Below, piece after piece: positions 4,749 through 24,378 of a stretch of 64,000 nt of DNA. The position numbers were made by a program, and so were the translations under genes. Position 1 is the stretch's first letter. Each line of letters opens with the position of its first letter. The notes below the pieces were generated by a model, which ran no database searches, had not been told where the DNA came from, and saw only the letters and a program-made list of their open reading frames with translations. The DNA lies in the NCBI RefSeq assembly GCF_020400605.1, contig NZ_JAINRD010000005.1, forward strand, positions 1 to 64,000, read 5' to 3'. The DNA is from Streptomyces aculeolatus. Its GTDB lineage: Bacteria > Actinomycetota > Actinomycetes > Streptomycetales > Streptomycetaceae.

Positions 4749-9198
<4,450 letters not shown>

Positions 9199-9561
9199 CA
9201 GGAAATTCTCCTCGTCTGCACCCACGCCCGTGTGGCGTGGGCGGTGAGCGGTGGAGCACCCGCGCGGCAGGCTCGGGCCGGATGAGCGGCTGTAGGCCGG
9301 GCCGGTCTTCGATCGAAGCCACCGGGGGCGCGCTCTCGCGTGCTCCGAAGGCCACTACCGAGGACCGGCGCCCGCTGTCGGCACAGGTCCGGCGGCTGCG
9401 GGCGGTTGCTCCCCGTGTTCACTCTGTGCTGATGTCCTGCCGACCAGAGTACAAGTCCCCCTGGCGGCGTCTCGACGGCTGGCTGGCAACCGTTCGGTAA
9501 GGGTCCGTACGGACGGACCGGCCCGGCGTCCGGGCGAAACCGGAGCGCTGCGGGCATACGC
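9199..9561. other. pnp leader / rpsO-pnp intergenic region
   Basis: Between the rpsO terminator hairpin and the pnp start lie about 360 bases without a gene. In Streptomyces this interval is known to carry a separate pnp promoter in addition to read-through from rpsO. I cannot place a confident -35/-10 pair. A GAGGAG ribosome-binding site closes the region next to pnp. Confidence 0.5.
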
Positions 9562-9598
9562 CGAGGGAGCGGCTCCCGGTGCGGGAGCCGCTCCCTCG
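9562..9598 (-). terminator. rpsO-pnp intergenic hairpin
   Basis: A perfect 16-bp inverted repeat (9562-9577 with 9583-9598) with a 5-base loop begins 8 bases after the rpsO stop. It can act as an attenuator/terminator of rpsO. By analogy with the characterised rpsO-pnp operon it is also a likely RNase III processing site that sets PNPase levels. Confidence 0.85.
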
Positions 9599-9605
9599 AA
9601 CGGCG

Positions 9606-9893
9606 CTAGCGGGCGCCGGCGGCGCCGCGGCGGATGCCGAGGCGGTCGACCAGCGTACGGAAGCGGGCGATGTCCTTCTTCGCCAGGTACTGCAGCAGCC
9701 GGCGGCGGCGGCCGACGAGCAGGAGCAGACCGCGGCGCGAGTGGTGGTCGTGCTTGTGGGTCTTCAGGTGCTCGGTGAGGTCGCTGATGCGCTGGGTGAG
9801 CATCGCCACCTGTACCTCGGGGGAGCCGGTGTCGCCTTCCTTCGTGGCGTACTCGGCCATGATCTTCTGCTTGGTCGCGGTGTCGAGCGACAT
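9606..9893 (-). CDS. rpsO: 30S ribosomal protein S15
   Basis: S15 is a primary 16S rRNA-binding protein of the 30S subunit. At 95 residues it has the usual length. It contains [17 protein letters not shown] near the N-terminus and [20 protein letters not shown], the rRNA-contacting helix region. A GAGGAG ribosome-binding site precedes the ATG by 6 bases. It heads the run rpsO-pnp-M16-dapB-TPR protein. About 200 bases upstream separate it from the M23 peptidase gene on the same strand. Confidence 0.98.
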
Positions 9894-10039
9894 GTCCTAC
9901 TCCTCGGGTCGGCGCCGCCGAGCGTCCCTGGTTTTGGTCACAGGGAATCTGCGGTGACTCGGCAGGCGGGGCGGTCGCGGCGCCTCACCCGAGGGATACG
10001 GGGGCGCTCACGCGAACCGTCCGCCAGCCTATCAGCCGT

Positions 10040-10061
10040 GCGGCGGCCCGAGGACCGCCGC
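10040..10061 (-). terminator. Possible terminator after M23 peptidase gene
   Basis: A 7-bp perfect stem (10040-10046 with 10055-10061) and an overlapping GC-rich repeat (10061-10086) lie 33-54 bases past the M23 stop on the minus strand. There is no U-tract. Confidence 0.4.
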
Positions 10062-10093
10062 CCGGCGCCGCCCGGCGGGGCCGGGCGTGCGGG

Positions 10094-10612
10094 TCAGATC
10101 TTGACACCGTGCTTGCTGAGGAACGCGACCGGGTCCACGGCGGAGCCGTAGTCGGGGGTCGTGCGGACCTCGAAGTGCAGGTGCGGGCCGGTGGAGTTGC
10201 CGGTCGTGCCGATCTTGCCGATCAGCTCCTTGGCGTTGACCTTCTCGCCCACGTTCACGTCGATCTTGGACAGGTGGGCGTACTGGGTGTAGAGGCCCTC
10301 GCCGTGCTTGATCACGATGTTGTTGCCGTAGGCGCCGCCCCAGCCGGCCGTGACCACGGTGCCGTCGCTGGCCGACTTGACCTTCGTGCCCGTGGGGGCG
10401 GCGAAGTCCTGGCCGCTGTGCTTCGCGGCCCAGCGGGCACCGCCCTGGTTGTACTGGCCGGTGACGTCGTAGTCGGCCGTGACGGGCTTGACCCAGTCGG
10501 GCTTGCTGTCGGCCGTGGCGACGCCCGAGCCGAGGGCGACGACCATGCCGGCGCCCGCGGCGAGCATGGCGGTGGTGGCTACGGGGGCGGTGAACTTGGC
10601 GTGCTTGAACAT
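10094..10612 (-). CDS. Secreted M23 family peptidoglycan endopeptidase
   Basis: The 172-residue protein has a signal peptide (residues 1-35, MFKHAKF then a hydrophobic core ending GVATADS). A single M23 (LytM/lysostaphin-like) domain follows. Zinc ligands are visible as H65 and D69 (HSGQDFAAPTG) and H144/H146 (GPHLHFEVR), so it should be active. It would cut peptide cross-bridges in the cell wall during growth or sporulation. Start: ATG 10612 with a GGAGGG ribosome-binding site. The 5' region is unusually long and holds paired 15-bp repeats (10855-10893), which suggests regulation upstream. Several Streptomyces wall hydrolases use a c-di-AMP riboswitch, but I could not find that consensus here. 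Confidence 0.92.
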   Translation of the reverse strand: MFKHAKFTAPVATTAMLAAGAGMVVALGSGVATADSKPDWVKPVTADYDVTGQYNQGGARWAAKHSGQDFAAPTGTKVKSASDGTVVTAGWGGAYGNNIVIKHGEGLYTQYAHLSKIDVNVGEKVNAKELIGKIGTTGNSTGPHLHFEVRTTPDYGSAVDPVAFLSKHGVKI

Positions 10613-11107
10613 TCTCGGAATTCCCTCCAGAAAGGTTCCGACCCCGGCTGCGCTCCGAGGTCGCTCCACCTTGGTAACGCGTCCGATCGGGGCAGACAAG
10701 GGCCCTTGGTACGAGCCTGGGTCGTAGCCGCGATTCGGGTTTTTCCGCCCCTTGTGCACCCCAAAAGAACGGCGCCTGGAGCCACCCCGGACGGCACCCA
10801 AGCTGGCGTTTTTAGGGCATCCATGCAGGTCAGAGCCGATCGATCGACCCGTTTCCAAAAGTCCGGCGGACTCCCCTGCCAAAAGTCCGGCGGCCGCAGG
10901 GGCGAAAGTCCCGGACCCTTGTCAGATTCGCCTACTACCGCTTTTAGGATTCCTTCAGAGGCATGTGGTGCACGCCACTCCCGGATAAGAATTCGCGGCT
11001 CTCTCGCGGGCCTTTCTCCCCTGCCGCACGGGACCAATTACCCCCCGACTGGCGCGGAGCCCCACCGTCCCCGGTAGGCTGCGTCCGGCCAGTTCCTAGG
11101 AGGGGGT
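10613..11107. other. Divergent intergenic region M23 peptidase / kinase array
   Basis: These 495 bases separate the M23 gene (leftward) from the first kinase-like gene (rightward). They contain the two 15-bp direct repeats at 10855-10893 and a third partial copy of their core near 10903-10915. A TAGGCT hexamer at 11075-11080 could be a -10 element for the kinase array, but no good -35 accompanies it. An AGGAGGGGG ribosome-binding site lies just before 11108. No gene is seen. Confidence 0.45.
10855..10893. repeat. Paired 15-bp direct repeats upstream of M23 gene
   Basis: CCAAAAGTCCGGCGG occurs perfectly at 10855-10869 and 10879-10893, a 24-base period. A shorter relative (GAAAGTCCCGG) follows near 10904-10914. 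The A-tract core is striking in this GC-rich DNA and fits a regulator-binding site. It lies about 240 bases upstream of the M23 start codon and 215-250 upstream of the kinase array. Confidence 0.65.
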
Positions 11108-13516
11108 ATGGAACCGCTGCGACTCGACGACCCCGAGCAGTTCGGGGCGTACCGGCCGGTGGGGCGTCTGGATACGGACGCGGGCGAGATGCGCGCGCCG
11201 GCCGCGCGCTACATCGCCCAGGCGCCGGGCGGCGAACGCACAGTCCTGATCACCGCACCGCACACCGACGCGACGGCCGCCGACCACGGCCACGCCGGGC
11301 GCTTCCACGCGGCCGCCGCCGAGGCCCAGCGCCTCGGCGGTACGGCCGGCCCGTGGCTGGCGCCGGTGAGCGAGCTGTCGACCGGCGGCGCCCCGTGGTG
11401 GGCGATGCCGTACCGGCCGGCGCTGCCGCTGCCCGCCGCGCTGGACGCGCAGCGGGGCCCGCTGCCCGAGCGCACCGTGTACGCCGTGGGCGCCGCGCTG
11501 GCCGAGACGCTGGCCGCGCTGCACGCCGGCGGGGTGGCGCACGGCGGGCTCGACCCGACGGCCGTGCTGCTCACCGGTGACGGTCCGCTGCTGACCGGCT
11601 ACGGCACGGTGAGCGCGGCGGGCGCCGACGGCAGCCCGCGCGAGAGCATGGCCGGGCTCATACCGGAGTTCCTGCCGCCCGAGCAGGTCGCGGGCGGGCG
11701 CCCGCGGCCGCTGGGGGACGTGTACGCGCTGGCCGCGGTGCTCCTGTACGCCGCCACCGGCCGGGTCCCCGGGGGCGACCCGGCGGCGGACCCGCAGGCG
11801 CAGTACCCGGGCGACCCGCTGACGGACCCGCTCGCCGGCGATCCCGCGTACGGCCACGACCCGTACGCCGCGGATCCCTACGCCTCCGACCCGTACGGCA
11901 CCCCCGCGAACCCGCTGGACCTCCTCCAGCCCGCGCTCCGCGCCGTCCTGGAGCCCTGCCTCCACCCCGACCCCGCGCGCCGCCCCGCCGCCGCGACGCT
12001 GCTGCCGGAGCTGCTCCGCGCCGCCGCGCCGGGCGCGGGGGGCCCCGGCCCGGGTGCCGCGGCCCCCGGGACCGTGCTCGACGCCGCGACCACCCGCTCC
12101 GGCGCGGCCCTGGCCCCCGGCTGGCTGCCCCGCCGGGTCAGCGCCGCCCTGGCGCTCCAGGCCTCCGACGTGCTCGCCGCCGAGACCGAGCCGGACCCCG
12201 CCTTCCTGGCGGCGCTCGCGGCCGAGGCCTCGGGCACCCCGGACCTGATCGGCGACGCGACCGTCATCGGCCGCCCCGCCACCCGCCGCGCCCTGCTCGC
12301 CGGCATCGCCGGCGGGGCCGCGGGCGTCGCGGCCGGCGGCGCCGCCGCCTGGGCCGCGACCACCGAGGACCCGCCTCCGCCGCCGACCGCCGCGGAGCGG
12401 CTGGCCGCCCGCAACACCGGCAGCAAGCGGCTGACCGGAGCCGCGCCGCCCGTGCTGTGGGGCAAGGGCCTGGGCAAGGTCGAGCCGGTCGGCCCGCCGG
12501 TCGTCGCCGGGTCCTCCGCCGCGCTGGTCGTCGCGAAGTCCGGCGTCTTCGCGATGGACCTGCGCACCGGCGACGAGCTGTGGGAGCAGTCGGAGGTCAG
12601 CCCCGCGGGCCCCGCGGTGCCGCTCGGCGACGGCATGGTGATGGTGCCCGGCAAGGACCTGACGGTGCTCGATGCCGCGGACGGCTCGGTCGCCTGGACG
12701 TCGGAGAAGTTCCGCAAGGGCGGCAGGACGCCGTACGGCGCGCTCCTCGGCGTGGCCGGCGACACCGCGGCGTTCACCGTCAAGGAGGGCGGCGAGCTGA
12801 CCGTCGTCGGCTACGACCTCGCCGAGCGGCGCGAGCTGTGGCGCTCGCCCGGCTCCGCCGCCGCGACCGCCGCGCTCTTCCTCGGCGGCTCCGTCGTCCT
12901 GGTGCCCGAGGCCGACGACGACGCCACGCACCGCGACAAGCCGGTCACCGTCTCCGCGCTCGACCTCGGCAGCGGCGAGGAGCGGTGGGCGCAGGAGTAC
13001 GCCGGGATGGCGGGCGGCCACTGGGCCGCGGCCGGCAAGGACCTGCTGGTCGCCACCGCCGGCAAGGACATGCGCGGGTTCGACGTGACCGGCGACGGCG
13101 CCGAGCTGTGGAAGCTGACCGCGGAGCCGTGGGACGAGGACACCTCGAACCCGCAGAACTTCGGCCCGCCCGCCGTGCAGGGCGAGACGATCCACGCCCT
13201 CGACACGTTCCGCGCCGTGCACTCGGTGGCGCGCGACTCGGGCGAGGAGCAGTGGAAGCGCAACCCGCAGCTGGCCTACGTGGGGGTGCTCGTCCAGGCC
13301 CCGGCGCTGCACGTCACGCCCGACGGGAAGGTCCTGATCGCGGGCGACGACACGCAGGTGCTGGCGTACGACGCGGACGGCGGCGACCTGCTGTGGCGGT
13401 TCACCGACATGCGGCCGGGGAAGCCGAAGTACGCGCACCGGCGCCGGGTGGCGGTCGGCAAGGACACGGCCGTGGTCGCGAGCGGGAGCAGCGTCTACGC
13501 GCTGCCGCTGGACTGA
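11108..13516 (+). CDS. Pseudokinase - membrane segment - PQQ-like beta-propeller protein (paralogue A)
   Basis: This 802-residue protein keeps the fold outline of a bacterial Ser/Thr kinase (about residues 10-330) but not the chemistry. There is no glycine loop or VAxK lysine. The catalytic loop reads HGGLDPTAVLL (145-155) instead of HRDLKPSN, and the DFG position reads TGYG (163-166). The PPEQ element (190-193) and following helix survive. A TRRALLAG twin-arginine motif (392-399) leads a hydrophobic segment (~395-417). At least six PQQ-type propeller blades follow, each ending in a pattern like LRTGDELW. It is probably a membrane-anchored sensor or scaffold. It has a strong ribosome-binding site, and the next paralogue starts 28 bases later. 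Pseudokinase status is directly visible; the role is inferred. Confidence 0.88.
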   Translation: MEPLRLDDPEQFGAYRPVGRLDTDAGEMRAPAARYIAQAPGGERTVLITAPHTDATAADHGHAGRFHAAAAEAQRLGGTAGPWLAPVSELSTGGAPWWAMPYRPALPLPAALDAQRGPLPERTVYAVGAALAETLAALHAGGVAHGGLDPTAVLLTGDGPLLTGYGTVSAAGADGSPRESMAGLIPEFLPPEQVAGGRPRPLGDVYALAAVLLYAATGRVPGGDPAADPQAQYPGDPLTDPLAGDPAYGHDPYAADPYASDPYGTPANPLDLLQPALRAVLEPCLHPDPARRPAAATLLPELLRAAAPGAGGPGPGAAAPGTVLDAATTRSGAALAPGWLPRRVSAALALQASDVLAAETEPDPAFLAALAAEASGTPDLIGDATVIGRPATRRALLAGIAGGAAGVAAGGAAAWAATTEDPPPPPTAAERLAARNTGSKRLTGAAPPVLWGKGLGKVEPVGPPVVAGSSAALVVAKSGVFAMDLRTGDELWEQSEVSPAGPAVPLGDGMVMVPGKDLTVLDAADGSVAWTSEKFRKGGRTPYGALLGVAGDTAAFTVKEGGELTVVGYDLAERRELWRSPGSAAATAALFLGGSVVLVPEADDDATHRDKPVTVSALDLGSGEERWAQEYAGMAGGHWAAAGKDLLVATAGKDMRGFDVTGDGAELWKLTAEPWDEDTSNPQNFGPPAVQGETIHALDTFRAVHSVARDSGEEQWKRNPQLAYVGVLVQAPALHVTPDGKVLIAGDDTQVLAYDADGGDLLWRFTDMRPGKPKYAHRRRVAVGKDTAVVASGSSVYALPLD

Positions 13517-13544
13517 GCGCGCGACGCCAAGGGGGATTGTTCGT

Positions 13545-15815
13545 ATGCACACGTTGACCGGATCCGGCGGCCACAACGGCGGCGCGACCGGCACGGCCGG
13601 CGGCGCGCACACCGGCGGCCCGCAGCAGCGGGTGGGCCCGCACCGGATCGTCGCGCCGCTCGGCCCGTACGGCCAGGAGGGCGGGCCCGGCGCCGACGGG
13701 CCGCAGTTCCATCTGGCGTTCAGCGAGCCGCTGGGCCGGGTCGTGGTGCTCATGACGCCGCCCGCGGCGCTTGCCGCCGATCCCGGCTTCCGGGTCCGCT
13801 TCGCCTCCGAGGCCGGTACGTCCGCGCGGCTGGCGGGGCACGCCGCCGCGCCGGTGGCCGGGGTGGCGCCGCAGGACGAGGAGCCGTGGGTGGCGTACGA
13901 CTGCGCGCCCGCGCTGCCGCTGCCCGCGGCGCTGGCGGCGCACGGCGGTCCGCTGCCGGTGCCGTACGTCTGCCAGCTGGGGGTGTCGCTGGCCGCCGCG
14001 GTGCTCCAGGCGCACGCGCAGGGTCTGGTGTACGCGGGGCTGACGCCGGCCGCGGTGCTGCTGACGTCGGCGGGGCCGCGGCTCGTGGCGTACGGCGCGG
14101 TGCGCGCGGCGGCGCCGGGCGACGGCCCGCGTACGGCGGTGCCCGGGCTGCCGCCCGCGTGGCTGCCGCCGGAGCAGCAGGCCGGCGGGGTGCCGCGGCC
14201 GCTGGGCGACATCTACGCGCTGGGCGCGGTGCTGGCGTACGCCGCCACCGGTGCCCACTCCCCCGACCCCGGTGCGCTGCCGGAGCCGCTGGCGTCGGTC
14301 CTCGCCGGCTGCCTGGCCGGGGACCCGGCGCAGCGCCCCCGCGCGGACGCGCTGCTCCAGCAGCTCCAGCAGGTGCAGCAGGCCCTGCCGGCGGAGCCGG
14401 GGCAGGAGCAGCTGCCGGGGGCCGTCGCGGCCGCGCTGACCGCGCAGCTGCCCTCGCTGCCGGCGCAGGGCCCGCTCACGCCGCCGCCCGGGCCGGGCGC
14501 GCCCGGCGGCCCGCCCGCCGTCGGCGGGACACCGGACACCTCGGCCGGGGCGGGCGTCGGGGAGACCTCGGTGCCGCCGTCCCGCCCGGGGCGCCGCGCC
14601 CTGCTGCGCGGCCTCGCCTTCGGTGCCGCGGGCCTCGCGGTCGGCGGGGGCGGCGTCTACGCGTACCGCCGTGCGACAGAAGAGGATCCGCCGGTCTACC
14701 GCACCACCCCCGCGAAGGGCGCCGCGCCCAAGCCGCTGTGGCACTACTCGCTGCAGGGCCAGGAGGCCACGGGGATCAGCCTCATCGGCAAGATCGCCGT
14801 CGTGGAGACGATGGGCGCGCTCACCGCCGTCAACGTGCGCACCGGAAAGAAGGCGTGGGACTCCGACGTGTTCGCGGACGGGGGCCTGATCGACCTCGGC
14901 CGCGGCCGGGCGCTCGTCATCCCGTCGATGGGATCCATGGAGGTCGTCGAGCTGGCCGGGGGCAAGTCGAAGGGTGCCATCGAGGAGTACTCGCTCGGCA
15001 GCAAGCTGTCCTTCCAGGAGGCCGCCGGCGCCGCCGACGGGATCGTCTACTTCCTGGCCACGGTGGGTGAGGACCTGGAGAAGTTCGCCATGGTGGCGTA
15101 CGACACCCGCAAGGGCGAGGAAGTGTGGCAGAAGCCGCTGCCCGAGGGCTACGGCGACCTGAGCGACAACCCGCTCAGCGACGGCGAGACGATGAAGGTC
15201 CGCGGCCGCGAGCTGCTCATCCCCAGCGCCCCCACCTCCGGCTTCGACTTCACCTACCTCGCGCTCGACCGGCGCACCGGCGAGAAGGCGTGGGAGCAGA
15301 AGTTCGAGGGGATCGAGGACTACGACGGCCCCAGCACCTACGCGACCGACGCCGGGACGCTCTTCAGCCCCAACAACGAGGCGGACACGCTCCGGGGGTT
15401 CGAGATGCGCGGCGCGAAGAAGCTGTGGGAGCACCCGATGAAGGAGCACTTCTTCGCCGAGCTGACCGACGCGCGCTCGCGCGTGCTCTACGGCACGCAG
15501 GGTGCCCAGGTCACCGCGCTGTCGGTGCAGAACGGCAAGCGGGTGTGGAGCACCCCGGTCTACTCCGGCGGCAAGTTCGACGTCACGGACGTCCTCCTCA
15601 GCGGTACCGGCGGCACCCTCTTCTACAGCAACGACGCCGAGGTGCAGGCGTTCCGCACCCGCGACGGCGCGCCGCTGTGGCGGTTCGCGACGGTCAGCGA
15701 GGCCGGCTCGGCCTCCGACGACGGCCCCGGCATCTCCGGCCGGGTGCTCGCCGCGGACGACGGCATCGCTCTCGTCATGTCCAAGGACGCCCTCTACGCA
15801 CTCCCGGTGGACTGA
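13545..15815 (+). CDS. Pseudokinase - membrane segment - PQQ-like beta-propeller protein (paralogue B)
   Basis: This 756-residue paralogue has the same layout: kinase-like domain (about 28-290), GRRALLRG motif (349-356) before a hydrophobic segment (~352-374), then at least six PQQ-like blades. It is also catalytically dead. The loop that should be HRDLKPSN reads YAGLTPAA (163-170), the DFG aspartate is replaced (LVAYGAV), and no glycine-rich loop or lysine is seen. LPPEQQAGG is retained. The N-terminus is Gly/His/Thr-rich. I start at the ATG at 13545; the upstream AGGGGG is a plausible ribosome-binding site. It is tightly linked to A and to the active kinase C (4-base gap), so the three are surely cotranscribed. 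Confidence 0.86.
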   Translation: MHTLTGSGGHNGGATGTAGGAHTGGPQQRVGPHRIVAPLGPYGQEGGPGADGPQFHLAFSEPLGRVVVLMTPPAALAADPGFRVRFASEAGTSARLAGHAAAPVAGVAPQDEEPWVAYDCAPALPLPAALAAHGGPLPVPYVCQLGVSLAAAVLQAHAQGLVYAGLTPAAVLLTSAGPRLVAYGAVRAAAPGDGPRTAVPGLPPAWLPPEQQAGGVPRPLGDIYALGAVLAYAATGAHSPDPGALPEPLASVLAGCLAGDPAQRPRADALLQQLQQVQQALPAEPGQEQLPGAVAAALTAQLPSLPAQGPLTPPPGPGAPGGPPAVGGTPDTSAGAGVGETSVPPSRPGRRALLRGLAFGAAGLAVGGGGVYAYRRATEEDPPVYRTTPAKGAAPKPLWHYSLQGQEATGISLIGKIAVVETMGALTAVNVRTGKKAWDSDVFADGGLIDLGRGRALVIPSMGSMEVVELAGGKSKGAIEEYSLGSKLSFQEAAGAADGIVYFLATVGEDLEKFAMVAYDTRKGEEVWQKPLPEGYGDLSDNPLSDGETMKVRGRELLIPSAPTSGFDFTYLALDRRTGEKAWEQKFEGIEDYDGPSTYATDAGTLFSPNNEADTLRGFEMRGAKKLWEHPMKEHFFAELTDARSRVLYGTQGAQVTALSVQNGKRVWSTPVYSGGKFDVTDVLLSGTGGTLFYSNDAEVQAFRTRDGAPLWRFATVSEAGSASDDGPGISGRVLAADDGIALVMSKDALYALPVD

Positions 15816-15819
15816 TCCC

Positions 15820-18063
15820 ATGGCTACGCCCCTCACCCACGACGATCCGCAGCAGCTGGGCCCGTACCGGCTGGTCGCCCGCCTCGGCAGTGGCGGCATG
15901 GGCACCGTCTACCTCGCCCGCTCCACGGGCGGGCGCACCGTGGCGCTGAAGACCATGCACGCCGACCTCGTCAGCGGCGAGGCCGGCACGACGGGTGCCG
16001 AGTTCCGCACCCGCTTCCGGCTGGAGACCGACGCCGCCCGCGTCATCGGCGACCACTACGGCGCCGAGGTCGTCGACGCCGACCCGCTGGCGGAGACGCC
16101 GTGGCTGGCGACCGAGTACGTGCTCGGCCCGCCGCTGGACGAGGCGGTCGCGGTGTCGGGGCCGCTGCCCGAGACCACGACGCGGGCGCTGGGCGCCGCG
16201 CTCTGCGAGGCGCTCGGGCAGCTGCACCGCTCCGGCGTCGTCCACCGCGACCTCAAGCCGTCGAACATCCTGCTGACGTCGTCCGGGCCCAAGGTCATCG
16301 ACTTCGGCATCGCCCGCGCGGCGGGCGACGACCACCTGACCCGTACCGGCACCGCCGCGGGCACGCCCGCCTTCATGTCGCCCGAGCAGGCGTCCGGCGT
16401 CGAACACACCCCGGTCGGCGACGTGTTCGCGCTGGCCGGCGTGCTGGTCTTCGCCTGCACGGGCCACGGCCCGTTCGGCGGCGGCCAGGCCGCGGACCTG
16501 CTGTACCGGGTGCGCTACGGCGAGGCGGACCTGTCCGGCGTGCCCGCGGGGCTGCTGCCGCTGCTCCAGCGCTGCCTGGCCAAGGAGCAGGAGGCCCGCC
16601 CCGGCACCGACGAGCTGGCGGGGCTGCTCGCCGAGGGGCTGCCGGGCGGCACGGCCGACTTCGCCGACCACCTCCCGGACGCGCTGCACGCCGACATCCT
16701 GCGCCGCGCCGCCGTGGCCTGGCAGCCGCAGCCGCCGCGGCTGCCGTCGCCGGAGCAGGCCGCGCTGGAGACGCAGTTGGGCGCGGGCGGCACGGGCCCG
16801 TCGCGGCGCAAGGTGCTGGCGCTCGCGGGCGCGGGCGCCGTGGCGGTCGGCGGCGCGGGGGTCGGGGCGTGGGCGTTCCTCCGCGACGACGAGAAGGAGC
16901 CGGAGGCCAAGCCCAAGGCGAAGAAGCCGAAGGCGCCGAAGGAGCTGTGGACCCGCCCGGTCGTCGGCGGCGGCGGCGCGTTCAGCCTGGCCACCGGCGG
17001 CACCTACGTGCTGCTCCTCACCAGCGCCGGCGGCGGGCAGTTCGTGGACGCGCGCAACGGCAAGCTGCGCGGCGTCGACGACGCCGCAATGCCCTCGCTG
17101 GGTATCGTCGGCGACGACTCAGGGTTCTACGCCGTCGGCAGCCGCGACATCTCGGGTGATGGATCGTATGCCGTCTTCACCAGCGACCCGGAGACGGGCG
17201 AGCGGGAGGAACACGTCGTCCTCAAGGGCGCGGAGGTCAAGGGCACGGCCATCGAGGGCTACGAGAACGACATCATGCTGATGCGCGCGACCGCCCGCTG
17301 GGTCACCCGGGTCTACAAGGACAAGAAGACGAAGAAGCGCGTCGTCGAGAAGACGGAGTGGACCCCGCAGTTCGTGGCCGCGGACCTGAAGACCGGCGAG
17401 TTGCTGTGGGGCTTCGACAACAAGTCCCCGGACACCGGCCCCTCGTACGCGACGGCCCTGACGAAGAACGAGGCGCTCATCCGCGTCGAGTCCACCCTGA
17501 CGTGCCTCGACGCGCGGACCGGCGAGGTGCGCTGGACCTGGGAGGCGCCGAAGGCGGACCGCGACGCGCTCGCGGGACTCCAGCAGTTCCCCACGGTCAA
17601 GGGCCACGTCCTCCTCGGCCTGCGCGACCTGACCGCGCTGCGGCTGTCGGACGGCGAGGTGGGCTGGACGCTCGGCAAGGACCGCGACGCACGCGCCGCG
17701 CTCGGCCCCGACACCCGGCTGTACGGCACGCCCGCGGTCAAGGACGGCAAGGCCTACGTCGTCGAGAACGGCAACGGCTTCATCGCCATCGACGGCGCCA
17801 GCGGCGAGGTCGAGTGGGAGGCCAAGGCCGACTGGGCCGGGCCGCAGGCGTTCATCGTCGCGCCCGTGGTCGGCAAGAAGTACGCGTACGTGGGCACCGG
17901 CGGGCGCGACTGGGTGCGGGCCGTCGACCTGGAGGAGCACAGGACCGCGTGGTCGTACCGGGGGCCCGAGGACAACGAGCGCCCCATGGTCCTCGAACAG
18001 GACGACGCGAAGGTCGTCCTCGTCGTCACCGCCGCCGAAGTGCGCGGGCTCCCCCTTCAGTAG
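15820..18063 (+). CDS. Membrane Ser/Thr protein kinase with PQQ-like propeller (paralogue C)
   Basis: This 747-residue Hanks-type kinase has all catalytic features: GSGGMG loop (23-28), VALK lysine 44, HRDLKPSN (142-149), DFG (161-163) and SPEQ (187-190). A disordered stretch leads to SRRKVLAL (328-335) and a hydrophobic segment (~333-353). A Lys/Pro/Glu-rich linker and PQQ-like blades such as LDARTGEVRW and IDGASGEVEW follow. Normal topology would place the kinase in the cytosol and the propeller outside, so the propeller may sense an extracellular ligand. It starts 4 bases after paralogue B, which implies translational coupling. Substrates are unknown; the pseudokinase neighbours are plausible partners. 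Confidence 0.92.
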   Translation: MATPLTHDDPQQLGPYRLVARLGSGGMGTVYLARSTGGRTVALKTMHADLVSGEAGTTGAEFRTRFRLETDAARVIGDHYGAEVVDADPLAETPWLATEYVLGPPLDEAVAVSGPLPETTTRALGAALCEALGQLHRSGVVHRDLKPSNILLTSSGPKVIDFGIARAAGDDHLTRTGTAAGTPAFMSPEQASGVEHTPVGDVFALAGVLVFACTGHGPFGGGQAADLLYRVRYGEADLSGVPAGLLPLLQRCLAKEQEARPGTDELAGLLAEGLPGGTADFADHLPDALHADILRRAAVAWQPQPPRLPSPEQAALETQLGAGGTGPSRRKVLALAGAGAVAVGGAGVGAWAFLRDDEKEPEAKPKAKKPKAPKELWTRPVVGGGGAFSLATGGTYVLLLTSAGGGQFVDARNGKLRGVDDAAMPSLGIVGDDSGFYAVGSRDISGDGSYAVFTSDPETGEREEHVVLKGAEVKGTAIEGYENDIMLMRATARWVTRVYKDKKTKKRVVEKTEWTPQFVAADLKTGELLWGFDNKSPDTGPSYATALTKNEALIRVESTLTCLDARTGEVRWTWEAPKADRDALAGLQQFPTVKGHVLLGLRDLTALRLSDGEVGWTLGKDRDARAALGPDTRLYGTPAVKDGKAYVVENGNGFIAIDGASGEVEWEAKADWAGPQAFIVAPVVGKKYAYVGTGGRDWVRAVDLEEHRTAWSYRGPEDNERPMVLEQDDAKVVLVVTAAEVRGLPLQ

Positions 18064-18089
18064 GAACTTCCACCAGGAGCGGTACGTCC

Positions 18090-20162
18090 ATGAAACCCCT
18101 CGGCACCGGAGACCCGCTGCGCCTCGGCCCGTACCGCCTCATCGGCGTGCTCGGCGCCGGCGGCATGGGCAAGGTGTACCTCGGCCGCGACTCCTCGGGG
18201 CGGCCCGCCGCGATCAAGGTGCTGCGGCCCGAGCTGGCCCACCAGTCGAACCTGGCGCAGCGCTTCGTCCGCGAGGCGCACGCCGCGCAGGCCGTGCAGA
18301 GCCCCGGTGTGGCGCGGGTGCTGGGCGCCGAGACGGAGGGCGGACGGCCGTGGATCGCCTGCGAGTTCCTCGCCGGGCCGACCCTCGCCGAGGCCGTCGA
18401 GCGGTACGGGCCGCTGGACGGCACGGCGCTGCGGGCGGTCGGCGCGGCGCTCGCGAGCACGCTCACCGACATCCACGCGGCCGGCCTCGTCCACCGCGAC
18501 GTCAAGCCGCCCAACATCGTGCTGACCGCGACCGGGCCGCGCATCATCGACTTCGGCATCGCCCGCCCCGAGCACGGCCTGACGCTCACCAGCACCGGCG
18601 AGGCGCCCGTCACCCCGGGCTACGGGCCGCCGGAGCAGGTGCTCGGGCAGCGCGTGGGCCCGCCCGCGGACGTCTTCGCGCTGGGCGCGGTGCTCACGCT
18701 GGCGGCGACGGGGCAGACGGCGTACCAGGGCAGCCATGTGGCGGCCGTGCAGTACGAGGTGGTGCACGGCGAGCCGCGGCTCGAAGGGCTGCCGCCCGAC
18801 CTGTACCCGCTGATCGCCCCGTGCCTGGCCAAGGACCCCGCGTACCGCCCCACTCCGCCGCAGATCGCCGCCGCCCTCGCCCCGCCGCCCGGCTCCGAGG
18901 CCGTCTGGCGGCAGGGCGCACTCGCCGACGACATCGAGGGCCGCGAGCAGGAGGCGGGCCGCCTCGCCGCACTCCCCGCGGCCGGTGACACCCAGATCCC
19001 GGGGCCCTCGCGGCGGCGGCTGCTCGTCGGGCTCGGCGCCGGCGGCGCGGTCCTGGCGGCGAGCGCGGGCACGGCCGCGTGGTGGTGGCTGGGGAAGGAC
19101 GACGGCGGAACGACGGCGGCGCCCAAGCGCGACCCGTGGGCGGCGCAGCCGCTGAAGGGCTACAGCGCGAACAACGCCCCCGCGGCGCTCTGGGGCCCGG
19201 TCAGCGGGCTCAACTCCGATATGCCGATGCTGCTTCCGCTGCGCGAGATCCTGGTCGCCGCGATGGCCGACGGCAGCATCGCGGGTCTGGACATCCGCAC
19301 CGGCAGGGAGAAGTGGCGCCAGGAGGAGGCCGCGGCGGCGGCCCGCGCGGCGGCGCTCGACGAGAACACCTTCGTCGCGGCGGACGCCGAGGGCACCGTG
19401 TACGGGCTGCGCGGCCGGGACCGGCGCGAGCAGTGGTCGGCGCCGGGCGCCCGGGCGGAGGTCGTGCTCGCGGCCGACGCGGACGGGGCGTACGTGACGA
19501 CGAAGGACGGCGAGCTGCGCGCGGTCGGCACCGGCGGCAAGGAGCGGTGGACTGTCGGGCTGCCGGTCAAGTCGACCGTCAGCAAGCCCGCGTGGGCCGC
19601 GGTCGCCGACGGCCTGCTGGTGGTCTCGGGTTCCGACGGCAAGATCGCGGTGGTCGACACCAAGGACGGCAGGAAGGTGTGGGACACCCCGAAGCGCAGC
19701 TCCTACGCGATGCCGTGCGCGATCGGCGGGGGCTTCCTGTACGCGGGCGGGGACGGGCTGACGGCGTACGCGTTGAAGGGCGACGGCAAGCCGGAGTGGA
19801 ACGTGGAGCCGAAGGGCGAGTACATCTGGAGCGCGCCGGCGCTGGACGGCGAGGTGCTCTATGCCGTGAACGACACCATGCTCACCGCCATGAACGCGAA
19901 GACCCGGGACACCGAGTGGACGGAGGAGGCGTCGACCGTCGCCCTGAGGTACCCGCCGGTGGTCCAGGGGAACTCGCTGTGGTGCGGTACGTCGTCGAAT
20001 GGCGATCCCGACGCCCTGAAGGTCTACGACATCGGCAAGGGCAGGGTGGCGTGGGAGGATCGCCGGACGTCGCGTGAGCGGGACGACTGGACCATGGCCG
20101 CGGCGAACAACCGGGTGTTCATCCTCTACACGGGGTCGCTGACCGCAAACCCGGTGTTCTGA
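18090..20162 (+). CDS. Membrane Ser/Thr protein kinase with PQQ-like propeller (paralogue D)
   Basis: This 690-residue protein is a second intact Hanks-type kinase: GAGGMG (22-27), AIK lysine 43, HRDVKPPN (135-142), DFG (154-156), PPEQ (180-183). A SRRRLLVG motif (307-314) precedes a hydrophobic segment (~312-332). Seven or so PQQ-like blades fill the rest (for example LDIRTGREKW, VDTKDGRKVW). The ATG at 18090 has an AGGAG ribosome-binding site; the frame continues 5' inside gene C but that part is a shadow. It lies 26 bases after C and ends the four-gene array; a terminator-like hairpin follows. Confidence 0.92.
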   Translation: MKPLGTGDPLRLGPYRLIGVLGAGGMGKVYLGRDSSGRPAAIKVLRPELAHQSNLAQRFVREAHAAQAVQSPGVARVLGAETEGGRPWIACEFLAGPTLAEAVERYGPLDGTALRAVGAALASTLTDIHAAGLVHRDVKPPNIVLTATGPRIIDFGIARPEHGLTLTSTGEAPVTPGYGPPEQVLGQRVGPPADVFALGAVLTLAATGQTAYQGSHVAAVQYEVVHGEPRLEGLPPDLYPLIAPCLAKDPAYRPTPPQIAAALAPPPGSEAVWRQGALADDIEGREQEAGRLAALPAAGDTQIPGPSRRRLLVGLGAGGAVLAASAGTAAWWWLGKDDGGTTAAPKRDPWAAQPLKGYSANNAPAALWGPVSGLNSDMPMLLPLREILVAAMADGSIAGLDIRTGREKWRQEEAAAAARAAALDENTFVAADAEGTVYGLRGRDRREQWSAPGARAEVVLAADADGAYVTTKDGELRAVGTGGKERWTVGLPVKSTVSKPAWAAVADGLLVVSGSDGKIAVVDTKDGRKVWDTPKRSSYAMPCAIGGGFLYAGGDGLTAYALKGDGKPEWNVEPKGEYIWSAPALDGEVLYAVNDTMLTAMNAKTRDTEWTEEASTVALRYPPVVQGNSLWCGTSSNGDPDALKVYDIGKGRVAWEDRRTSRERDDWTMAAANNRVFILYTGSLTANPVF

Positions 20163-20217
20163 CCGGCTGTCGGGGGCACGGCCCGGGCGGGTGCGCCGCA
20201 CCCGCGGCGGGGCCGGT
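20162..20217 (+). terminator. Terminator-like fold after kinase array
   Basis: An outer 6-bp pair (20162-20167 with 20212-20217) flanks a 7-bp perfect hairpin (20187-20193 with 20199-20205). It begins at the stop codon of paralogue D and probably separates the kinase array from the MinD-like gene. Confidence 0.5.
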
Positions 20218-20261
20218 GTTCTGAACGGTGACACATCCGTTGCCGATTGCGACAGTCCGGC

Positions 20262-20292
20262 CTGCCGGCGCGCTCGGTCCTCCCCTTAGGGT
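20262..20292 (+). promoter_or_regulatory. Possible promoter of MinD-like gene
   Basis: TAGGGT at 20287-20292 matches the Streptomyces housekeeping -10 pattern. The -35 (CTGCCG, 20262-20267, 19-base spacer) is weak. It would give a leader of about 60 bases. Confidence 0.3.
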
Positions 20293-20361
20293 GGGAGAAG
20301 CACACGGCACCGGGCATGCGCCGGCATGACCGCCGTGCTGCGAGGGGATTCGGGAGGCACA

Positions 20362-23300
20362 GTGAGCAGCGATCGGGACGAGAACGGCGCGGGCCGGACC
20401 AGCCCCGATGTCGAGCGGACCGGCACGGAGCAGGAGGGCACGGGCGAGTTCACCACCAGCCCTGCGCCCACCGCCTGGTACACCCAGGGGGTGCCGCCGC
20501 CGAGCACCGGGCACGACGAGGAGGCGGGCACCGGCTCGTCCCAGTCCGGCTCGGCGATGCCCCCGTTGCCCAACGGCTTCACCGCCGCCCATGCACCCGC
20601 CCCGGGACCGGTGCCGGAGTCGATGACCCCGCCGCCGTTCCTGCTGACGCTGCCGGACGAGCCGCCGGAGACCGGCACGGTGCCGGAGCCCCGGGCGGCG
20701 GAGGAGTCGCCGGCGGCCGCCGCCGCGGACCTGGCCGCGGACGCCGACCGGGACGACGACAGGGACGGCGCGCAGGACGACGACGACCAGGACGAGGCGT
20801 ACGCGGCGGAGGACGACTCCCCGCCGCTGACGGCGGCGACGGACCCGGCCGCGGTGGCGTTCGCCGCGCTGCCGATGGCTCCGGCGGCCCCCGGGGCCGA
20901 GGCGGACGACGACGAGGATGCCGGCGGCGTGGCCGCGGCGGAGTCCGAGGACTTCACGTCGTCCCCGGCGAGCGCGCCGAGTTGGTACGGAGGCGGCGCC
21001 TCCGCGGCGCCGGCGGCGTACGACGAGCAGGACTCCGGCTCCGCCGGTGCCGGGACGGACGACGAGTCCGCCGGAGCCACGGCGGAGTCCGCGGACGCGA
21101 CGGTCGGCGCGGACGACGACGGTGGCACCGGTGCGGAGTGGTCCGCCGCCGAGGCGTCCGCCGACGACGGCTCCGCGTCCGGCGCCGACTGGCCCGCCCT
21201 CCCGGAGGCGGCCCCCGCCGCGGAGGCGGACGAGGCCGACCGGGACGACGACACGTGGCACAGCACCGACTCGGGGTCGGGCTGGCCCTTCCCCTCCGCG
21301 AGCACGTCCGCGGACGGGACCGAGGACGACGACGAACCGGCCGCGGCCACCGCGGACACCGACGGGACCGACGAGGCCCCCGAAGCGGAAGCCGGGGCAT
21401 CCGGCACCGACTGGCACAGCACGGCAGCGCCGTCCGCGGACACGGGTGCGGGCGAGGCGTCCGACGCGGGTACGGGCTGGCCGTTCGCGTCCGCCGCGGA
21501 GGCGGACGACGGCGAAACCGCCGAGCCCGCCGCAGCCGCCGAAGCGACGTCGGTGGACGCGACCGGCGCTTCGTCCGGCGGCCACTGGCGCAGCAGCGTG
21601 CCCGAGGCGGACACCGAGGAGCCCGCGGAGTCCGGCTCCGCGTGGCCTTCGTTCGCCGGCACTCAGGAGGCCGCGGACGCCGGGACCGACGCGGCCGCGG
21701 ACGGCACCGACGAGGGCCCCGAGACCCCGGCGGCCGGTGCCGCGTGGCCGCCCGTGCCCGAGGCGCTGCCCGCCGCGGAGCCGGACACCGGTGACGCGCC
21801 CGCGGCCGACGCGGCCTTCCCCGCACCGCAGTTCGCGCCGCCCCCGCGGCCGGAACCTGACGACGCGAGTACGCCCGCCCCGTACCGGGACGACGCCACG
21901 CGCACGCTGACCCCGCTCGTCGCCCACGCGCCGCCCGCCGCGGCGCAGGACGACCGCGACGACAGCGACGGGACCGACGAGGCGCGCGGCGACCAGGACA
22001 AGGGCGACGTGGTGAGCGGCGCGACGATGCGCTTCTCGCCCGCCTCGCTGCGCGCGCAGGCGGCCGAGGTCCAGGACCGTACGCCCGCGGACGACGAGCC
22101 GAACGACGCCGTGCCGACCGCACCCGAGGTGCAGGACCGGGTGCCGGCCGACGCCGCACCCGCCCGCGACGACGAGCCGCAGGACGCGCCGCCGCAGGCC
22201 AGCCCGTACGCGACGGACCGCGCGCCGGCCGGCGCGAACCCGTGGGCGCCCGCGCCCGCCCCCGACGCGTCCGCCTCGCCGACGGCGCTGCCGCCGCTCC
22301 CCCCGCAGTTCCCCGCCGCCGAGCAGCAGCGCCCCCCGGCGTCGGACCTGCCGTCCGGCCCGCCGCCCGCCGCCGGCGCACCCTGGCAGTCGCCCGCCGC
22401 GCAGCCGGCACCGGAGCAGGCCGCGCCGCAGCCTCCCGCGGCTCCCCCGGCGGCGCCCTCCGCCCCGCCGGGCGCCGTACCGCCGCAGCAGCCGTACCAG
22501 GCCCAGCCCGCTCCGGGCGCCGTCCCGCCCGGCGCCCCGGCGCCCGGCACCGCCCCGGAGTCCGCGGGCGCCTCCCCGGCGCCGTCCGCGCCGCCGGCCG
22601 GCGCCCACGCCCCGGCGCCCCCGGCCTCGGCCGCTCCGGCCGCCCCGCCCGGCGCCCCCGGCGCGTACTCCGCGCCCGGCAGCCGGCTCCCGGCCCCGCA
22701 CACCCCGCCCGCGCCCGCCGCCGCCGGCGAGGCGCCCCGCTCCGGGCCCGCCGCGGAGCCGCCGCCCGGCTGGACCGTGGCGTCGCCCTCCGGCGTGCCC
22801 GTGGCCCCGGCCGGCCAGCACCCCGACTCCCGCGCCCCGCAGGGCGGTTACGGCTGGCCCCAGCCGCCCGGCGCCCAGCCCGGACAGCAGGGCCAGCCCG
22901 GACAGCCCGGACAGCCCGGACAGCAGAGCCTGCCCGGCCAGCAGAACCAGCCGGGCCAGCCCGGTCAGCCGGCGCAGCCGGGCCAGCAGCCCGGTCAGCC
23001 CGGCGCCTACCCGGGTCTCCCCGGCCAGCCCCAGCAGCAGGCCCAGCCCGGCCAGCAGCCCGGCTACCCCGCCCAGCAGCCCGGCCACCAGCCTCCCGGC
23101 CTCCCGCCCGCCGGCGGCTCCCCGTCCGGCCCGCCCGGCCAGGGCGCCCTCTCCCCCGCCACGTCCCCGGCACCGCCCGCCCAGCCCGGTGGCGACCCGC
23201 GGTCCGGCGGCTGGCCCGAGGTCACACCGGAGCAGCGCCGCCAGCCGGTGCACAACGCGCCCCTCGGCTACACCGCCGCGGTCGAGCTGTCCTCCGAGCA

Positions 23301-24378
23301 GCTGCTGCACGACAAGCACAAGCCGCAGCGCAAGTCGGAGCGCGGCGGCCTGTCCCGGTTCAAGCTCGGCGGCAAGGCGGCCGAGGAGGAGCGGCAGCGC
23401 AAGATCGCCCTCGTCCGCACGCCGGTGCTGTCGTGCTACCGCATCGCCGTGATCTCCCTCAAGGGCGGCGTCGGCAAGACCACGACGACCACCGCGCTCG
23501 GCGCGACCCTCGCCGCCGAGCGGCAGGACAAGGTCATCGCGATCGACGCCAACCCGGACGCGGGCACGCTGGGCCGCCGGGTGCGCCGCGAGACGGGCGC
23601 CACGATCCGCGACCTGGTGACGGCGATCCCGTACCTGAACAGCTACATGGACATCCGCCGGTTCACCTCGCAGGCGCCGTCCGGCCTGGAGATCCTGGCC
23701 AACGACGTCGACCCGGCGGTCTCCACGACGTTCAACGACGAGGACTACCGCCGCGTCATCGACGTGCTCGGCAAGCAGTACCCGGTGATCCTCACCGACT
23801 CCGGCACCGGCCTGCTCTACAGCGCCATGCGCGGCGTGCTGGACCTCGCCGACCAGCTCATCGTCGTGGCCACGCCGTCCGTCGACGGCGCGTCCAGCGC
23901 CAGCACCACGCTGGACTGGCTGCACGCCCACGGCTACGCCGACCTGGTGTCGCGGAGCATCACGGTCATCTCCGGCGTCCGCGAGACCGCCAAGATGATC
24001 AAGATCGACGACATCGTCAACCACTTCAAGCAGCGCACCCGCGCGGTGCAGGTGATCCCGTTCGACGAGCACCTGTCGGCCGGTGCCGAGCTGGACCTGA
24101 CGATGATGCGGCCGAAGACCAAGGAGGCGTACTTCAACCTCGCCGCGCTCGTCGCCGAGGACTTCACCCGCGCCCAGCAGGCGCAGGGCCTGTGGACCGG
24201 CGAGGGCGGCCAGCAGCCGCCGCACGCGATGCCGCCGCTGCCGGGCCAGGGCGGCGGCGCGGACGGCGCCGGCGGCTACGGCGCGGGCGGGGGGTACCCG
24301 GGCGGCGGCGGCTATCCGGGTGGTGCGCCCGGCACCGGCCCGTCGCAGGCGCAGTCAGGACCGAGCCCGTACGGGTGA
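20362..24378 (+). CDS. Large disordered protein with C-terminal MinD/ParA-like ATPase
   Basis: About 1338 residues. The first ~950 are low complexity: an acidic Ala/Asp/Glu-rich part, then Pro/Ala-rich sequence and Gly-Gln-Pro repeats. A conserved segment ([22 protein letters not shown]) follows, then a MinD/ParA-type ATPase with the deviant Walker A KGGVGKTT at 1034-1041, a switch-like [11 protein letters not shown], and a domain running to about 1290. The tail is Gly/Tyr/Pro-rich. I start at GTG 20362, next to a GGGAGG ribosome-binding site, not 12 codons earlier. Related proteins occur beside type VII (ESX) secretion genes in Streptomyces and mycobacteria, where they may energise or position the machinery. 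No ESX genes are visible here, so its partner is unclear. Confidence 0.85.
22870..23100 (+). repeat. Gly-Gln-Pro coding repeats in MinD-like gene
   Basis: Short in-frame repeats built on CCCGGACAG and CCCGGCCAG units encode irregular Gly-Gln-Pro-rich tripeptides. This is a disordered linker and a likely site of length variation between strains. Confidence 0.75.

Follow-up and report, generated by a model that had tools for sequence, protein, structure and literature searches.

The window analysed here is a stretch of 64,000 nucleotides from Streptomyces aculeolatus (contig NZ_JAINRD010000005.1, positions 1 to 64,000 of the forward strand). It contains an array of four genes, designated A, B, C and D, which encode two catalytically degenerate kinase-like proteins followed by two intact kinases. 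All four genes lie on the forward strand, separated by stop-to-start gaps of 28, 4 and 26 nt. Each product carries a kinase-like domain, a PQQ_2 beta-propeller scoring above the Pfam cut-off and a hydrophobic segment between the two (Table 1). The earlier note on this DNA, which described four tandem, tightly spaced paralogues sharing a kinase-like domain, a membrane segment and a PQQ-type propeller, is confirmed in this respect. The Pfam Pkinase family scores above its curated threshold in C, with 106.7 bits, and in D, with 121 bits. In A, it was matched below that cut-off (23.1 bits) and over residues 115-299 only, and it was not listed for B in the same Pfam scan.

Alignment to live kinases shows that the beta3 lysine is replaced by threonine in A and by methionine in B, and that the catalytic asparagine is alanine in both. 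The HRD and DFG motifs are substituted as well (Table 1). Neither A nor B thus exhibits the residue set of an active Hanks-type kinase. C and D retain the glycine loop, the lysine, the glutamate, HRD, the asparagine and DFG. The alignment agrees with the previous description of A and B as catalytically degenerate and of C and D as intact.

Table 1. Genes and protein features of the kinase array and of one adjoining gene, in coordinates of the window.
Feature	Position	Strand	Remarks
A	11108-13516	+	802 aa
A, pseudokinase domain	11108-12037	+	HGG replaces HRD, GYG replaces DFG, Tyr-rich insert at alpha-G site
A, TRRALL twin-arginine-like motif and internal membrane segment	12281-12364	+	segment finder
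A, PQQ_2 beta-propeller	12398-13513	+	Pfam
B	13545-15815	+	756 aa
B, pseudokinase domain	13629-14441	+	YAG replaces HRD, AYG replaces DFG, alpha-G stretch of 17 residues
B, RRALLR motif and internal membrane segment	14592-14666	+	segment finder
B, PQQ_2 beta-propeller	14685-15812	+	Pfam
C	15820-18063	+	747 aa
C, intact Ser/Thr kinase domain	15820-16644	+	GSGGMG, VALK, HRDLKPSN, DFG
C, SRRKVL twin-arginine-like motif and internal membrane segment	16801-16881	+	segment finder
C, PQQ_2 beta-propeller	16915-18060	+	Pfam
D	18090-20162	+	690 aa
D, intact Ser/Thr kinase domain	18090-18884	+	GAGGMG, AAIK, HRDVKPPN, DFG
D, SRRRLL twin-arginine-like motif and internal membrane segment	19008-19095	+	segment finder
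D, PQQ_2 beta-propeller	19110-20159	+	Pfam
SCO5717-like MinD/ParA ATPase (context)	20326-24378	+	N-terminal NCBIfam match of 31.3 bits, just below the cut-off of 35

A profile built from eight pseudokinases was run over 101 Streptomyces genomes. It scored at least 216 bits in 21 of them, the window's own included, and the next best score was 193 bits. Adding the named strain CNH099 (L031) gives 22 loci. An all-frame scan found the order pseudokinase(s)-C-D on one strand in every one of these, with 2-161 nt from a stop to the next matched domain. Six loci have two pseudokinases (the window, CNH099, G055, G102, G062 and G094), and propeller matches were obtained for the pseudokinases of all six, the match being weak (58 bits) for B of G094 (L126). 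The other 16 loci exhibit a single short pseudokinase, hereafter P (a label also used for the pseudokinase family as a whole), with neither membrane segment nor propeller; such short, propeller-free proteins account for 16 of the 28 pseudokinases. Since the usual form is one short soluble pseudokinase, the dead subunit is mostly devoid of a sensor domain of its own. The window therefore presents the fuller, two-plus-two form of the module. The order of two dead and two live genes, which the earlier note proposed to look for in other Streptomyces, does recur there, but in a minority of the loci (6/22), the usual arrangement being one short P and two live kinases. The array as such is conserved beyond this strain and is not a local oddity.

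A search of 20 relatives with full-length B had hinted at a near-unique array confined to the window, an impression refuted by the profile search in the 101 genomes; it was misleading owing to the rarity of full-length B. A pattern search with B in named genomes returned three loci, of which that of CNH099 alone has the array. In a class-wide sample of 196 genomes, only G000, G094 and G255, all of them Streptomyces, reached at least 311 bits, the next score being 210.3, and G255 (L149) carries the same P-C-D array. A broad occurrence outside Streptomyces is thus unsupported in this sample, though remote relatives may escape the profile, given that it assigns just 172 bits to the divergent dead kinase of G081 described below.

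Across the 22 loci, the beta3 lysine, the HRD aspartate, the HRDxK lysine and the DFG aspartate are absent from all 28 pseudokinase domains, and the catalytic asparagine is kept in one (L122_A). No relative of A, B or P with intact lysine, HRD or DFG motifs was therefore found. Residues of the structural scaffold are retained: the APE glutamate and the alpha-F aspartate in 28/28, and the alpha-C glutamate in 25/28, the three exceptions being A proteins of the window's clade. In 25 of the 28 pseudokinases, the stretch bearing helix alpha-G is shortened from 34 to 16-23 residues. At the alpha-G position, a tyrosine-rich low-complexity insert of DPYA/DPY repeats (residues ~220-270 of A) is seen only in the three A proteins of the window's clade. 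The full catalytic set (glycine loop, VAIK lysine, glutamate, HRD, asparagine and DFG) is present in all 44 C and D domains. For comparison, we took the best 30 of the 67 matches to the AfsK profile in the window's genome, minus C and D of the window. None of these 28 AfsK-like kinases has lost the lysine, the glutamate, the HRD aspartate, the asparagine or the DFG aspartate, in a sample biased towards intact kinases because it was drawn from the top scorers. The motif loss in A and B is more than chance.

The pseudokinase domain of B, modelled by AlphaFold2 with ten alignment rows, adopts a kinase fold (predicted local distance difference test score, pLDDT, 81; predicted template modelling score 0.84). 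The best Foldseek matches of this model are PknA and PknI of Mycobacterium tuberculosis, with Aurora A among the next (template modelling scores of ~0.62-0.74 by query length). By sequence, the P profile matches PknB and PknA first. A single-sequence model of full-length A reached a pLDDT of 37.6 and was not interpreted.

The association of the dead and live genes is close to constant. A profile of the C kinase gave at least 456 bits in 23 of the 101 genomes and at most 366 bits in all others. All 21 genomes with P are among these 23, the additional two being G081 and G049, and a dead partner is found in 22 of the 23. No P gene without C and D was seen in the loci examined. In a quick phylogenetic tree (no bootstrap), the P, the C and the D sequences are each monophyletic, with support values of 100, 99 and 100 in the Shimodaira-Hasegawa-like approximate likelihood ratio test. 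A first tree included 15 of the 28 background kinases and a second one, with G081, all of them. A and B form separate subgroups inside P (supports 88 and 96), so that the A/B pair looks like an old duplication.

The two additional genomes are informative about the pseudokinase. The array of G081 (L160, positions 7430-13992, minus strand) is divergent: it starts with a live, D-like kinase, continues with the dead one and ends with a live, C-like kinase. By visual inspection, the dead kinase has isoleucine for the lysine, HQG for HRD and GFG for DFG. It retains a membrane segment and an alpha-G-like stretch, as well as a C-terminal part that looks like a propeller, and may be close to the ancestral form. 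The three members group with D (96), P (99) and C (99), and are likely sister copies of P, C and D. As they group one each with the three families, the dead partner probably predates the split of G081. In G049 (L159), a remnant of P lies at ~9140-9350, upstream of intact C and D. It corresponds to the C-terminal part of P, with 60-81% identity over 42-68 residues.

We estimated the ratio of nonsynonymous to synonymous substitution rates (dN/dS) by the Nei-Gojobori method for the window against G055 and CNH099. For the kinase domains, the respective values are 0.43 and 0.35 for A, 0.21 and 0.38 for B, 0.13 and 0.13 for C, and 0.07 and 0.06 for D, whose kinase domain is the most conserved part of the array. 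The propellers range from 0.39 to 0.59, except that of B against CNH099 (1.07); with 0.59 against G055, the B propeller is the fastest-evolving part. Across loci, the median identity is 75% for the C kinase, 73% for the D kinase and 52% for P, and falls to 27% and 33% for the C and D propellers. A conserved kinase joined to a changing outer domain fits a receptor with a varying ligand.

Divergence is also correlated between the components. Over 18 loci (the near copies L031, L038, L124 and L112 dropped, and A standing for P in four-gene loci), the distance matrices correlate with r = 0.65 for P and C, 0.41 for P and D, and 0.61 for C and D (Mantel p = 0.0002, 0.0024 and 0.0002, respectively). 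The distances of the C and D propellers are correlated with each other (r = 0.69, p = 0.0002), and those of the C kinase and the C propeller weakly so (r = 0.20, p = 0.07).

The internal hydrophobic segment begins with a motif of the type (S/T/G/A/P)RRx(F/L/V/I/M) in A (6/6), C (21/22), D (22/22) and occasionally B (2/6). The exception in C is L126, where the segment finder picked another segment. In B of the window the sequence is GRRALLRG, which has an arginine in its interior. None of the 16 short P proteins has such a motif or segment. Among the 28 other AfsK-like kinases of the genome, the motif is found in six and a pair of arginines in six more. The consensus for twin-arginine translocation (Tat) is a (S/T)RRx(F/L)(L/K)-type motif ahead of a mildly hydrophobic segment. 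The motif at the start of the segment therefore suggests export of the folded propeller by Tat, and the segment is a possible internal Tat signal-anchor. It should be noted that GC-rich genomes favour arginine over lysine, and that arginine-rich anchors likewise satisfy the positive-inside rule. If functional, an internal twin-arginine motif would represent an uncommon way of bringing a sensor domain to the cell exterior.

The neighbourhood of the arrays points to the type VII secretion system (T7SS). On one flank of the window's array lies an M23 peptidase gene adjoining rpsO, together with pnp, and on the other the SCO5717-like ATPase gene; Pfam supports the M23 and S15 (rpsO) identities. 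The array thus occupies, between SCO5717 and rpsO, the site of the ESX genes in most of these species: in 34 of 38 other Streptomyces loci examined, SCO5717 has ESX genes as neighbours. Among the 34 genomes with ESX at this site, the array is present in 11 and absent from 23. In the window (10094-24378) and in G055 (L038), the SCO5717-like gene is retained and a canonical ESX system was not found. Four of the 38 loci (L044, L066, L075 and L076) equally lack any ESX marker, so that the window's clade is not exceptional in having lost ESX here.

From the 38 SCO5717 loci (L046 excluded; L060 overlaps the array locus L120), we derived profiles of seven T7SS genes. The controls, which were not a random draw, were 20 loci from array-bearing genomes, each surrounding another AfsK-like kinase with a high score. 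Within the fetched stretches (14-25 kb), T7SS markers were found at 12 of 23 array loci versus none of the 20 controls (Fisher p = 1e-4). With close relatives collapsed and L126 counted as negative, the figure is 9/19 (p = 4e-4). L037 and L112 rely on a subtilase match alone, the mycosin profile being a profile of S8 peptidases, and L126 is positive through a weak EccC-like match only. A strict count without these three gives 9/23 (p = 0.002), or 8/19 after collapsing (p = 0.001). L116, L117, L120 and L123 exhibit a gene for a mycosin-like subtilase and two WXG100 genes upstream of P on the same strand, and Pfam supported the WXG100 identity of all three genes tested from these WXG100 pairs. 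At the G102 and G062 loci, EccC and EccD come first, followed by A, B, C and D and then by rpsO and pnp; the source of the EccD profile was confirmed. EccC above the family cut-off was not found in the window's genome or in G055, and is present in 20 of the 22 array genomes; EccB was likewise not found in these two and is present in 8 of the 10 genomes tested. At another place, both genomes retain a gene that is EccC-like but divergent, with a WXG100 gene close by. The T7SS is thus likely to be an output of the module, without being its exclusive one.

Large proteins related to a DUF6571 protein recur beside arrays (L037, 14355-18391; L112; L117; L119; L120), next to small genes or subtilase genes. 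Pfam matched DUF6571 in the L037 protein only, and returned no match for 4 of 10 neighbour proteins. These large proteins may be type VII cargo.

Taken together, the sequences make it probable that the array encodes a receptor-kinase module of three components, one of them a pseudokinase subunit devoid of catalytic function. C and D would be membrane-anchored receptor kinases, each with its kinase domain in the cytoplasm, a signal-anchor within the chain and an outer propeller sensing something in the envelope; the propeller would be exported folded by Tat through the segment with the twin-arginine motif. The pseudokinase (A and B here, the short soluble P in most relatives) would be a dedicated subunit. 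By analogy with other pseudokinases, its likeliest role is to bind C and/or D through their kinase domains, either tuning the activity of these kinases or bringing in their substrate. Where a type VII system adjoins, that system or its cargo would be the likeliest output. We infer a physical complex, a direction of control, Tat export and a link to secretion. Because the set recurs in about one fifth of the sampled Streptomyces genomes, often beside protein-export genes, the dead copies probably have a function and are not mere debris.

The earlier note had read the array as a heteromeric receptor in which pseudokinases act as partners or sensors of the live kinases. Its motif description was right and its reading is half-proven: the loss is not due to chance, is unlikely to be decay and is not unique to the strain. 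The constant linkage, the correlated divergence and the purifying selection fit a heteromeric system. Several points weigh against it. The role of sensor is not general, since at 16 of 22 loci P has neither membrane segment nor sensor domain. Nor is there a strict requirement for P, which may be dispensable, as G049 keeps C and D with a remnant of P only. The dead kinase of G081 is a long branch (1.01) whose placement was marked as unsure by the tree program. The dN/dS values come from three close relatives, a simple method and high-GC DNA, the pseudokinase domains of A and B change more rapidly than their live counterparts in C and D, and the Mantel signal could partly arise from shared species history. 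The heteromeric complex itself is a predicted association, and with the loss of alpha-G a surface that commonly binds proteins is gone.

That same loss bears on a rather unlikely alternative, in which the pseudokinase is a decoy or brake that competes for substrate or dimerises with C or D and keeps them inactive, a dominant negative used for tuning. Such a brake would account for the retention of the C-lobe scaffold (APE glutamate, alpha-F aspartate) after catalysis was lost, and for the survival of C and D in G049, as expected if a brake had been lost. The missing alpha-G helix speaks against simple substrate mimicry, and sequence data cannot separate a brake from positive allostery. Far less probable is that A and B are functionless paralogues left to decay after tandem duplication. 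Tandem AfsK-like kinases are indeed common in this genome (67 profile matches, at least eight adjacent pairs), A and B are faster-evolving than C and D, and one genome, G049, has lost most of P. However, the same residues are lost in 28/28 pseudokinases of 22 loci with the frames open, the dN/dS of the pseudokinase domains is 0.21-0.43, and P is one clade found only with C and D. Equally improbable is a pseudokinase with another catalytic activity such as AMPylation or glutamylation, as in SelO and SidJ. Repurposing of the kinase fold has been described (excerpts of PMC12599244), but with the lysines and aspartates listed above gone in all 28 proteins and the asparagine in 27, the usual ligands of ATP and metal are missing.

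The output leaves room for a further alternative, plausible though less probable than the module proposed above, in which the array is an accessory T7SS regulator that senses the envelope or cargo and phosphorylates the ESX machine or a WXG100 protein, with the pseudokinase as a dock loosely resembling EssB/YukC. The enrichment of markers, the subtilase gene and WXG100 gene pair upstream of P and the EccC-EccD-A-B-C-D order favour it. There is also a precedent, as PMC10653824 reports that PknA phosphorylates the WXG100 protein CFP10 in mycobacteria, showing that kinase control of type VII cargo is possible. On the other hand, the array is under selection in the window's genome and in G055, where neither EccB nor an EccC above the cut-off was found, 11 of 23 array loci have no marker nearby, most genomes with ESX at the SCO5717 site are free of the array, and the controls were chosen rather than drawn at random. 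The positive loci are not independent events either, since at least seven share the SCO5717-pnp chromosomal site. Extending the three-component module, we tentatively consider a heteromeric receptor kinase comparable to eukaryotic receptor pairs that depend on a dead partner, inherited as a three-part unit (one or two pseudokinases and two live kinases), inserted by Tat through an internal signal behind the kinase domain and, in many Streptomyces, wired to the T7SS; it would be the first such signalling module of the actinobacterial T7SS. Type VII secretion provides a testable output, and if the complex is real, bacteria have evolved dead-plus-live receptor kinase complexes on their own.

Among known systems, AfsK of Streptomyces, like the AfsK-like receptor Ser/Thr kinases, has the same layout of a kinase and a PQQ-type propeller, and no NCBIfam profile scores higher than that of AfsK (NF053615) with any of the four proteins. 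The scores of the four (57, 90, 282 and 236 bits, respectively) are far from the equivalog cut-off of 1300, the genome's AfsK match over that cut-off (1401 bits) lies elsewhere, and A and B are dead, unlike AfsK. Some genes of this genome contain several of its 67 AfsK-profile matches.

EssB/YukC of the Firmicutes T7SSb, as presented in excerpts of PMC9600267, resembles A and B in having a pseudokinase inside, one membrane span and a folded domain outside, and shares the link to a type VII system. The outer domain is helical in EssB and a propeller here. EssB is a core component of its machine, whereas most genomes with ESX at the SCO5717 site (23 of 34) lack the present module, which also occurs without a canonical T7SS in the window's clade. 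The module is thus not a core part of the actinobacterial T7SS. No EssB entry was found among the best 60 matches of the P profile or the best 50 Foldseek matches, in searches that included no direct comparison with EssB.

MviN of mycobacteria is a pseudokinase controlled by a live kinase. Like the proteins described here, MviN (ActPs3) is a bacterial pseudokinase of the Ser/Thr kinase family; it has another set of domains, and the excerpts of PMC12599244 list no kinase gene in its operon. Dead relatives of the present kinase family are known in other settings, as catalytically disrupted relatives of actinobacterial propeller kinases have been reported in other conflict systems (Aravind and colleagues, in excerpts of PMC7159879). 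Nothing on the module appears in the excerpts of PMC3482391, and no description of it was recognised in the literature judged from titles and the beginnings of abstracts, in a search that left subscription papers mostly outside.

The closest counterpart is ActPs1, a family of actinobacterial pseudokinases, placed beside family Act1 in the kinase tree, that have lost all three catalytic motifs, about 60% of them without the G-helix and many with PQQ_2 (O'Boyle et al. 2025, excerpts of PMC12599244, where the functions of bacterial pseudokinase families are stated to be unknown). As in ActPs1, the beta3 lysine, the HRD aspartate and the DFG aspartate are all substituted here (28/28), the alpha-G stretch is shortened in most of the proteins (25/28), and PQQ_2 is present in A and B of the window, with propeller matches in the five other four-gene loci. 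The resemblance is drawn from these described features. In contrast to the PQQ_2-bearing members of ActPs1, 16 of the 28 pseudokinases are propeller-free, and in contrast to ActPs1 as described, where the relevant passages name no operon or partner, the pseudokinase here is tied to two live kinases. What looks to be an ActPs1-type pseudokinase thereby gains a near-constant set of partners in Streptomyces, a natural deletion (G049) and a divergent relative (G081).

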